A DNA stretch of 64,000 bases from Methanospirillum hungatei (GTDB lineage Archaea; Halobacteriota; Methanomicrobia; Methanomicrobiales; Methanospirillaceae), in contig NZ_CP077107.1 of assembly GCF_019263745.1 (NCBI RefSeq), forward strand, positions 2,046,001 through 2,110,000, in the 5' to 3' direction. A program made the position numbers and the translations under genes. Under the pieces are notes generated by a model. That model ran no database searches and was not told the DNA's origin. It worked only from the letters and a program-made list of their open reading frames with translations. Positions 13,642 through 50,658 of this stretch are shown in pieces (position 1 is the first letter of the stretch; each line of letters starts with the position of its first letter).

Positions 13642-14745
13642 GGTTGCTTTCAGCATAACCTTTGGAATAAGCTTCATCTCATTCGGGCGTATCGTTACAG
13701 TTACCGTCTTTTTCTGATACCCCTCTTTCTGGTATGTAAGTGAACGTGAGCCTGCAGGAACGATTAATGTTGCCGGGGTAGTCCCAAGATATACATCACC
13801 CATGTACACTTCTGCTCCTGTAGGTTGTGAAGTTACCATGGCAAATCCAGCAGGGCCTGTCGGGTAATCCCCTACAATCCTGATAATTTCAGGTTTGCGT
13901 TCAACTGAAGAGTAATTATCACTAATTACTTCAAGAGTGACAGTATACCGCCCGATTCCTCCATACACATGGCTCGGGTTCTGGATAGTTGACATTGTTC
14001 CATCACCAAAGTCCCATCTCCATTTTTTCGGACTTCCGGTGGAATGATCAGTGAAGTTCACTGTCAGAGGAGGGGTTCCAGTCATTGGCATTGCGGTGAA
14101 TGCTGCAACAAGGGTTTCTGTTACTTTGGGTTCAGGAGTTGGTTCTACGGTCGGTGTTTGTGTAGGCTGTGTTGTAGGGATTTCAGTTGGAATAACTGTC
14201 GTTGGAACAGCCTCTGGTTCTTTTGTAGGTTCTACGGTAGGTGATATCGTTGGCGACACCGTGGGAGATGTAGATCCAACCTTAATGTGTGGACTATCTA
14301 CAGTAACCGATATAGGATTACCTGAATCATCTGTGAGTTCAGTTATTTGCACCTGAACATCTGCTTCTCCATCTGTTAGCCCCTTTATTCCTAGAGTAGC
14401 AAGGATGATATTTGAGGCTCCGGATTTAATCTGGTCAACCAAATCCACTGCCACAATATTCACTGACGAGCTAGGTAATTTAGATGCCGAATTCATGCTG
14501 AAACTAGCCGGAAAATTAACAGAGATTATTTCAGCATTAGATCCAGGATTTATCGAGATTTCAAGCTGGTATCCCGCTATTCCGGATGGGGCCTGATCCA
14601 GCATAATATCCATGGTTCCAGATACACCTGACGAAACAAGATTCAAATCAGTTCCAGATATTGTTGCCCCATTCACTGCAGATCCTATGAAAAGGATCAG
14701 GCATAGTACAGTGATGATTACAGATTTTTTTGTCATATCATTCAC
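13636..14745 (-). CDS. Secreted cohesin-like / PKD / PEGA protein
   Basis: A 369-residue exported protein. A signal peptide (SVIITVLCLILFIGSAVNG) is followed by a cohesin-like domain (about 25-152: GIAGYQLEISINPG..., then LATLGIKGLTDGEADVQVQI and ITELTDDSGNPI). A Pro/Thr linker comes next (155-210), then a PKD domain (213-293, with WRWDFGDGTMS) and one PEGA domain (300-369). There is no C-terminal membrane helix or dockerin, so attachment must be by domain contacts. It is third in a same-strand series after a dockerin-bearing giant and a paralogous protein (65-base gap). The cohesin assignment rests on pattern and length. A generic cell-surface adhesin is the alternative. Confidence 0.7.
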   Translation of the reverse strand: MNDMTKKSVIITVLCLILFIGSAVNGATISGTDLNLVSSGVSGTMDIMLDQAPSGIAGYQLEISINPGSNAEIISVNFPASFSMNSASKLPSSSVNIVAVDLVDQIKSGASNIILATLGIKGLTDGEADVQVQITELTDDSGNPISVTVDSPHIKVGSTSPTVSPTISPTVEPTKEPEAVPTTVIPTEIPTTQPTQTPTVEPTPEPKVTETLVAAFTAMPMTGTPPLTVNFTDHSTGSPKKWRWDFGDGTMSTIQNPSHVYGGIGRYTVTLEVISDNYSSVERKPEIIRIVGDYPTGPAGFAMVTSQPTGAEVYMGDVYLGTTPATLIVPAGSRSLTYQKEGYQKKTVTVTIRPNEMKLIPKVMLKATS

Positions 14746-48506: not shown

Positions 48507-49781
48507 TTATCTCATTATCTGGATTACTATCTGTTCATCTACCTGTGCCAGACGTCCATCTGACTCTTCCATAATTACTTCCCATATTTTTTCTGTACTG
48601 GTATCAAACCACATCTCTTTTGTTCTGCCATGTCTTCCACGATTGACAAGGCGGGTATTTATTACTCCCAGCATATTTAACTCAGATATAAGATCAGATA
48701 TTCTTCTGGCCGTCAGAACATCAATCTCAAGAAACGGAGTTAGTTCTTTATAAATACGGGTTACATCTCCAGAAATAAAAATTCGTTGACCTGCCCGATG
48801 AAGTAAAAGCATACAATATAATACGATTTTACTTTGTGTCGGAAGAGTTTTTATGCACTCGACCATACTATCTGTTTCAATTTTTGCCTGGGCCTTTTTT
48901 ACATGTTCAATGGTTACTTTTGATCCATTTTCACGATCAGCCAGTTCGCCAGAGATGCGGAGTAAATCCAATGCCCTTCGCGCATCCCCATGCTCTTGAG
49001 CTGCCAGAGCTGCACAAAGCGGAATCACTTCATCATCAAGAGCATCTTCTGCAAATCCGATTGCTGCTCGTTGCTGTAAAATATCGCAAAGTTGAGGTGC
49101 ATTGTATGGAGGAAAAACTAGTTCTTCTTCTGATAAGGAAGATAAAACTCGTGGATCTAGGAATGTCTTAAAACCAAGATCATTTGAGATGCCTATTATC
49201 GATACTTTTGAACGACTGAGATCAGTATTAATCCTGGTCAGATTGTAAAGAGTGTCATCTCCACTTTTTTTCACTAACTTGTCTATTTCATCAAGAATAA
49301 TTATGAAAACGCCTGTACTAGTGTCAATCTGATTTTTGAGTTCGCTATATACCTGATCAGTTGGCCATCCAGTCATCGGGATATGAATTCTGGTTTTATC
49401 ACTTGATGGATCCTCTTCACCAAGAATCATCTTTGAGATTTGTGCTAAAACCCGGTACTGAGTATCAATAACTTCACAGTTGAGATGAATGACCCTACAG
49501 ATAGTGCCTCTTCTGGCACTAACCGATTCTAATTCTGTTCCAACGTATCGAACTGAGGCTGTCTTACCTGTTCCGGTTTTTCCATATATAAGAATATTAG
49601 AGGGGGTTTCCGTCTGAAGGGCTGGAGCCAAAATTGCTGCTATCTGATCTATTTGTGGTTTTCTGTGAGGGAGAATGTGAGGCCGATATGAGTGTCTTAG
49701 TACTTCGCGATCCCGGAATATTCGATTTTCTGAAAGGAATTTATCAAATAAACCAGGACTATCGTTTGTATCATGTGTCAT
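48507..49781 (-). CDS. cdc6: Orc1/Cdc6 replication initiator
   Basis: A 424-residue AAA+ initiator. Walker A is YGKTGTGKT, Walker B is IILDEIDK, sensor 1 is SIIGISND, and sensor 2 is GDARRALDLLRISGE. A C-terminal winged helix follows (about 330-424). It binds origin recognition boxes and loads MCM. The ATG at 49781 starts MTHDTND. The frame also runs upstream to an ATG at 49880, but that part translates the ORB element and is not expected in the protein. It is transcribed away from the adjacent origin. Confidence 0.93.
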   Translation of the reverse strand: MTHDTNDSPGLFDKFLSENRIFRDREVLRHSYRPHILPHRKPQIDQIAAILAPALQTETPSNILIYGKTGTGKTASVRYVGTELESVSARRGTICRVIHLNCEVIDTQYRVLAQISKMILGEEDPSSDKTRIHIPMTGWPTDQVYSELKNQIDTSTGVFIIILDEIDKLVKKSGDDTLYNLTRINTDLSRSKVSIIGISNDLGFKTFLDPRVLSSLSEEELVFPPYNAPQLCDILQQRAAIGFAEDALDDEVIPLCAALAAQEHGDARRALDLLRISGELADRENGSKVTIEHVKKAQAKIETDSMVECIKTLPTQSKIVLYCMLLLHRAGQRIFISGDVTRIYKELTPFLEIDVLTARRISDLISELNMLGVINTRLVNRGRHGRTKEMWFDTSTEKIWEVIMEESDGRLAQVDEQIVIQIMR

Positions 49782-49860: not shown

Positions 49861-49885
49861 CCCCACCCCTTTGTTTCCACTGGAA
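49861..49885 (-). other. Origin recognition box, left copy
   Basis: On the minus strand it reads TTCCAGTGGAAACAAAGGGG and continues with TGGGG. This matches the archaeal ORB consensus, with the GGGG G-string that Orc1/Cdc6 contacts. It is identical to the right copy over 25 bases, in inverted orientation. Confidence 0.85.
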
Positions 49886-50083
49886 CTCACATTTTTGACT
49901 CATGAATAACTTTTAAAAAAAAAAATCATATCGACTCTCTGTTGTACAGGTCAGCTTGAGTACATAAATAGTTTTTGTTATTATTATAAAATATTATGAA
50001 ATTGTAAAAAAATATTAAAAAAACATACTATAAGTAAAATTTAGAATAACAGCAAAGAAATTACAACAACCTTGTTCTATTTC

Positions 50084-50108
50084 TTCCAGTGGAAACAAAG
50101 GGGTGGGG
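50084..50108 (+). other. Origin recognition box, right copy
   Basis: Identical to the left ORB in inverted orientation, with the G-string pointing outward. A frame through this box (from 50089) reads the same residues METKGWGI as the left one, a consequence of the shared DNA rather than shared protein coding. Confidence 0.85.
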
Positions 50109-50169: not shown

Positions 50170-50658
50170 ATGGATTCCTCTCATATCCAAAAAATATCAG
50201 TACAAGTAGCTATACTTGTTATATCAACAACCAGATCTGAAAAGGAAGATACTGCAGGGAAAAGTATTCAATCATTATTTCAAGAATCTTCAATTCCTGT
50301 TGTTCGATTAGATGTAATACCTGATGATATTAAATTAATTCAAGCGGGCTTGAAAAAAGCACTTACTGAAGCAAATTGTATTATTCTGACCGGAGGAACA
50401 GGGATTACCCATGATGATTGTACAATTGAAGCAGTTGACCCACTTCTTCAAAAGAAATTAGATGGATTTGGAGAGTTATTCAGATTAAAAAGCTTTTCAG
50501 AAGTTGGGACAAGAACTGTCCTCAGTAGAGCAGTAGGAGGTATTATTGATGGTAAAGCCGTATTTTGTATTCCAGGTTCAAAAAATGCAGCTGAGTTAGC
50601 TACCCGTGAAATAATAATTCCAGAAATATTTCATATACTCACTCATGCCAACCGATAA
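50170..50658 (+). CDS. moaB: Molybdenum cofactor biosynthesis protein MoaB/MogA family
   Basis: A 162-residue MoaB-like protein with VAILVISTTRSEKEDTAGKS, LTGGTGITHDDCTIEAVDPL, SEVGTRTVLSRAVGG and FCIPGSKNAAELA. The family adenylylates molybdopterin before Mo or W insertion. In a methanogen it would supply the tungsten/molybdenum pterin of formylmethanofuran dehydrogenase and formate dehydrogenase. I chose the ATG at 50170. Upstream in-frame codons run into the ORB. Its 5' flank is the replication origin. Confidence 0.85.
   Translation: MDSSHIQKISVQVAILVISTTRSEKEDTAGKSIQSLFQESSIPVVRLDVIPDDIKLIQAGLKKALTEANCIILTGGTGITHDDCTIEAVDPLLQKKLDGFGELFRLKSFSEVGTRTVLSRAVGGIIDGKAVFCIPGSKNAAELATREIIIPEIFHILTHANR

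Follow-up and report, generated by a model that had tools for sequence, protein, structure and literature searches.

We propose, with a probability of roughly 93%, that a site of 248 bp, two inverted origin boxes (ORBs) included, is the main chromosomal replication origin, of the oriC1 type, of a Methanospirillum species. The stretch of DNA analysed here, the window, is 64 kb long and covers positions 2,046,001-2,110,000 of a single contig of 3,393,136 bp from a Methanospirillum genome. The assignment is based on what we observe in the DNA: the arrangement of the boxes, the weakness to melting of the DNA between them, the gene neighbourhood, the conservation throughout the genus and a breakpoint in composition skew. 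Since the ORBs fit the published Methanomicrobia motif, this is an ordinary oriC1-type origin, and it is built in the ordinary way. Less expected are the single ORB copies at other places in the genome.

Architecture of the probable origin region

The two ORBs are exact reverse complements of each other across 25 bp (Table 1), just as the first-pass annotation had described them. Each has its G-run at the 3' end, and on both sides the run points outward, away from the middle, again in agreement with that description. When the window was searched with the 25-mer at up to 3 mismatches, the two ORBs were the sole matches, and 100 shuffles searched in the same way gave 0 matches. The next best ORB match in the window, at 14380, agrees with the degenerate core at 17 of 20 positions. 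The claim that only two full boxes are present therefore stands for the window and the origin; it does not stand for the genome, where solitary ORBs occur at other places.

The 198 bp between the ORBs had been called an A+T-rich unwinding region, and its composition and stability make this likely. Its A+T content is 77.8%, compared with 56.8% for the window, and only 41 of 63,802 segments of this length in the 64 kb exceed it. The least stable 60 bp of the whole window, as located by a nearest-neighbour stability scan, also lie here, starting at 49978.

Table 1. Positions of the origin, of its flanking genes and of ORBs found at other sites. Plain coordinates refer to the window; G000 is the genome of the window.
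Feature	Position	Strand	Likely start	Remarks
ORB, cdc6 side	49861-49885	(-)		Extended G-string, GGGGTGGGG; exact inverted 25-bp copy
ORB, distal side	50084-50108	(+)		Extended G-string; exact inverted 25-bp copy
A+T-rich likely unwinding element	49886-50083	none		A+T content and nearest-neighbour stability scan
orc1/cdc6 initiator gene	48507-49781	(-)	ATG 49781	Pfam Cdc6_lid, Cdc6_C
MoCF_biosynth-domain gene, divergent	50170-50658	(+)	ATG 50170	Pfam PF00994
ORB at grpE-dnaK	G000:C1:1232048-1232067 (L255:3001-3020)			Outside window; full core
LysE-side solitary ORB	G000:C1:3226381-3226400 (L256:3001-3020)			Outside window; beside LysE-type gene
Third ORB, far side of cdc6	G003 L148:17050-17069; G007 L149:2963-2982; G001 L146:7119-7138			About 6.8 kb from the pair

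By analogy with Sulfolobus and Haloarcula, we can outline how the ORBs would be bound, the DNA melted and the origin fired. Most likely, each ORB is occupied in a fixed polarity by one monomer of the Orc1/Cdc6 protein from the adjacent gene; its winged helix would read the TTCCAGTGGAA dyad and its AAA+ domain would read the G-string. Together, the two proteins would bring MCM helicases to the A+T-rich DNA between the ORBs, which melts easily, and replication forks would depart in both directions.

Neighbouring genes and their starts

The boxes had been placed next to cdc6, and the Pfam domains of the adjacent gene, a lid domain and a Cdc6 winged-helix domain, confirm its identity as orc1/cdc6. 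The closest named relatives of the protein are from Methanospirillum hungatei M59 (91%) and M. stamsii (90%). Its best solved relatives in the PDB are 2v1u and 2qby_A, which we take to be DNA-bound structures. The MoCF_biosynth neighbour is no part of the origin machinery.

A GTG within each ORB (49880 and 50089) opens the longest ORF on either side, and the longer cdc6 ORF accordingly reaches 49880. Because of these GTGs inside the boxes, both neighbouring ORFs begin METKGWGI, and we do not believe that they are true gene starts. Gene starts inside origin boxes may be an artefact of automatic annotation. The Cdc6 alignment begins at about residue 32-39 in most of the more distant relatives, and the ATGs given in Table 1 are, judging from the sequence, the likely real starts. 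Measured from these, the distal ORB is 62 bp upstream of the MoCF gene and the cdc6-side ORB is 80 bp upstream of cdc6. Since the latter lies at this distance from the likely start, cdc6 is likely to be autoregulated through it.

A second, distant Cdc6 paralogue (27% identity, Cdc6_lid) is encoded at G000:C1:864750-865715 (L007). No ORB was found near this gene, the best match being 13/20.

Position on the chromosome

The ORBs lie at 2.0959 Mb on the contig. We took skew from 60 evenly spaced 20-kb samples of the contig and fitted a model with two breakpoints to G-C and A-T skew, corrected for gene direction. In the best fit, the origin falls at 2.06-2.10 Mb and the second breakpoint at 0.30-0.44 Mb. 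A skew minimum far from 50 kb in the window had been named beforehand as evidence against an origin here; the breakpoint instead falls where the boxes are. When the sign was left free and the arc was required only to span 20-80%, the model fitted best with breakpoints at 0.30 and 2.06-2.08 Mb, and under these settings 0 of 300 permutations matched the observed fit (0.289; permuted maximum 0.184). A-T skew by itself fits slightly better at 1.96-1.98 Mb, and an unconstrained bootstrap of the breakpoint gives a wide 5-95% range of 1.72-2.68 Mb. For G002, a closed sister genome of 3,544,738 bp sampled at 40 points, the model was not significant (0.130; permuted maximum 0.220) and showed no preference for the oriC of that genome. 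Of the features that mark an oriC1-type origin, the clade's ORB motif, inverted ORBs around A+T-rich DNA and an adjacent orc1/cdc6 gene are all present, and the extreme of composition skew is found in the genome of the window and is not significant in the sister.

Conservation within the genus and the order

We compared 12 genomes of the genus, including that of the window, and 10 of them have both sides of the site. All ten carry two inverted ORBs, 207-228 bp apart from start to start, with an A+T content of 0.69-0.83 between them. Conservation of the boxes in sister species, which the first-pass annotation had proposed as a check, is therefore borne out. In G001 there is a single ORB near a contig end, and in G006, where cdc6 extends to the contig end, no ORB was found. 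The DUEs have no motif common to all members of the genus beyond A/T runs; a ucm-like motif in all of them was considered and rejected, as shuffled sets did nearly as well.

The two ORBs of a pair are identical across 25 bp in only two of the ten genomes (G000 and G008). Perfect identity is thus no feature of the genus and is not special. The suggestion of a simple, symmetrical origin that could serve as a genus reference is fair for the layout, since this is kept in every intact genome; it does not hold for the identity of the boxes. Gene conversion between the two arms, that is, concerted evolution beyond shared selection, is an unlikely source of this identity. The ORBs do differ less within a genome than across genomes (1.5 vs 2.1 mean differences; permutation p = 0.028, 10 genomes), but this signal is weak and its p value ignores relatedness. 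Moreover, the boxes of a pair differ in 8 of 10 genomes, and selection for the preference of one initiator explains equally much.

For the order Methanomicrobiales, 80 cdc6 loci were fetched, of which 63 have at least 1 kb upstream. A reverse ORB followed by a forward ORB, with the G-strings outward, is found in 51 of the 63, and the opposite order in none of them. At 12 loci, boxes are on one strand only or absent at the cut-off. Other genera often have an extra cdc6-proximal box that runs into a TTTATA-like sequence, and this box is absent from the three Methanospirillum loci in the set.

Comparison with known origins

We found no origin work devoted to Methanospirillum in the open-access literature, and the genus now gains a clean two-box origin with genus-wide support. 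The general layout of archaeal origins has been reviewed (PMC4010727). The ORBs fit the motif given for Methanomicrobia from DoriC / Ori-Finder 2, TCCA[GC]T[GT]GAAA[CT][AG]A[AT]GGGGT, and their second G-run (TGGGG) lies outside the motif in that form (PMC4164010).

The site is like oriC1 of Haloarcula hispanica as described in PMC3936714, with an inverted ORB pair, extended G-strings, an A+T-rich middle and cdc6 beside it. There, each of the two inverted ORBs is needed. The extended G-string is termed halophile-specific in that account (PMC3936714); its presence in a methanogen genus means that it is not confined to halophiles. The same source reports a G-rich repeat in most, not all, haloarchaea (PMC3936714), and between the Methanospirillum ORBs none was seen in the sequence or by a repeat scan. 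Likewise, oriC1 of Sulfolobus (ORB3-DUE-ORB2) has A+T-rich DNA between inverted ORBs, each of which is reported to be needed in vivo (PMC12141716). A third ORB and a ucm motif are also described for it, and its ORB3-DUE-ORB2 region measures 130 bp (PMC12141716), whereas the Methanospirillum origin has two boxes over 248 bp and no DUE motif common to the genus was found.

ORBs away from the origin

A search of the 12 genus genomes with a degenerate 20-bp ORB core, allowing at most 2 mismatches, gave 58 matches compared with 1 for the reversed control. Of these, 21 belong to oriC pairs, 3 lie on the far side of cdc6 and 34 are solitary ORBs. Among the solitary ORBs, 20 have at most 1 mismatch, and 4 lie within ORFs of at least 100 codons (L253, L257, L267, L268). 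The sites were read as single boxes, with no cluster of several initiator sites among them, and they are scattered as far as about 1.1 Mb from oriC.

Ten of the 12 genomes (G000, G002, G003, G005-G011) have such an ORB at grpE-dnaK, the genes being identified as GrpE and HSP70 by Pfam. In G001 and G004 the contigs end too early for it to be seen: upstream of the grpE match they hold 1,468 and 1,184 bp, and in G003 and G007, their nearest relatives, the ORB is at about 1.48 kb. Where no gene is inserted, in 8 genomes, the distance from the end of the ORB to the grpE start is 429-433 bp. In these genomes it is invariant at 17 of 20 columns, compared with 54 of 349 for the DNA as far as the promoter region (Fisher p 9e-11, relatedness ignored), and the best other 20-column window of the intergenic region has 10 invariant columns. 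Outside the genus, no ORB was found within 1.5 kb of grpE at any of 18 loci (30 grpE loci scanned; 11 further genomes gave no locus). We found no paper in the open-access literature that deals with solitary ORBs at grpE-dnaK.

A second group of solitary ORBs shares a neighbourhood in six genomes (G000, G002, G005, G008, G009, G010), represented in Table 1 by the site beside the LysE-type gene. We rejected the idea that these are plain promoter operators, since the ORF layout places at least 5 of the 6 sites between convergent 3' ends; at the sixth (G005), the convergent ends rest on a tblastn match.

Two classes of box and other readings of the site

The sequence T[GA]GGG follows the core/GGGG in 21 of 21 origin boxes, in 0 of 3 far-side boxes and in 0 of 34 solitary ORBs, all of which derive from few independent loci. 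Since the search pattern ends before the bases of this second G-run, the split does not follow from the search itself. It would be explained by two classes of initiator site, one for origin firing and one for titration or regulation. Selection probably maintains the solitary ORBs, and the protein that binds them is probably the same Orc1; the second Cdc6 paralogue could be their reader instead. Their role may be titration, regulation or structural, all of which are compatible with the present data. As a tentative and rather doubtful extension, a two-class Orc1 code can be imagined. The GGGGT[GA]GGG inverted pair, found only at oriC, would license firing. Single boxes with one G-run at conserved sites, chiefly the one about 430 bp upstream of grpE-dnaK, would act as sinks for Orc1 or as switches that couple initiation to the expression of chaperones or to fork passage. 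Initiator sites that are not origins are known, for example datA of E. coli and oriC2D of H. hispanica (PMC3936714), with which the solitary ORBs can be compared. According to that source, 11 ORBs follow directly downstream of the cdc6 gene of oriC2D, and titration by the clustered ORB region has been reported in Haloarcula (PMC3936714), whereas the solitary ORBs here are single and dispersed. Orc1-2 has been described as a damage regulator (PMC9738581). The conserved solitary ORBs offer a direct test of whether the archaeal initiator has jobs away from the origin.

The paralogue and the solitary ORBs also bear on whether the site is one of at least two active origins, with another at or near the paralogue (864,750) or at a solitary ORB. 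Both exist, but we consider this improbable. One pair of skew breakpoints fits well (a single-pair model being the only one fitted), the paralogue has no ORB nearby, and the solitary ORBs have neither the second G-run nor a partner box. It is less probable still that the inverted ORBs are merely operators of cdc6 and the divergent MoCF gene, with replication starting elsewhere: they do lie just upstream of both genes and ORB cores do occur away from the origin, but the skew breakpoint coincides with them, the least stable DNA of the window sits between them, and the extended G-run is found at the origin only (21/21 vs 0/37 other sites). We therefore retain the reading of the site as the main chromosomal origin.

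Further ORB-like sites

The third ORB on the far side of cdc6 is absent from the window analysed here. A match at 2,197,112 was set aside as a probable coincidence; it is within a long ORF that resembles an ion-pumping ATPase, as named from its sequence. A weaker ORB-like site with 2 mismatches is located outside the window at G000:C1:2019363-2019382 (L258:3001-3020), directly before a CheW-domain gene and divergent from a peptidase M50 gene. G009 and G010 also carry an ORB-like site in this CheW/peptidase M50 neighbourhood.
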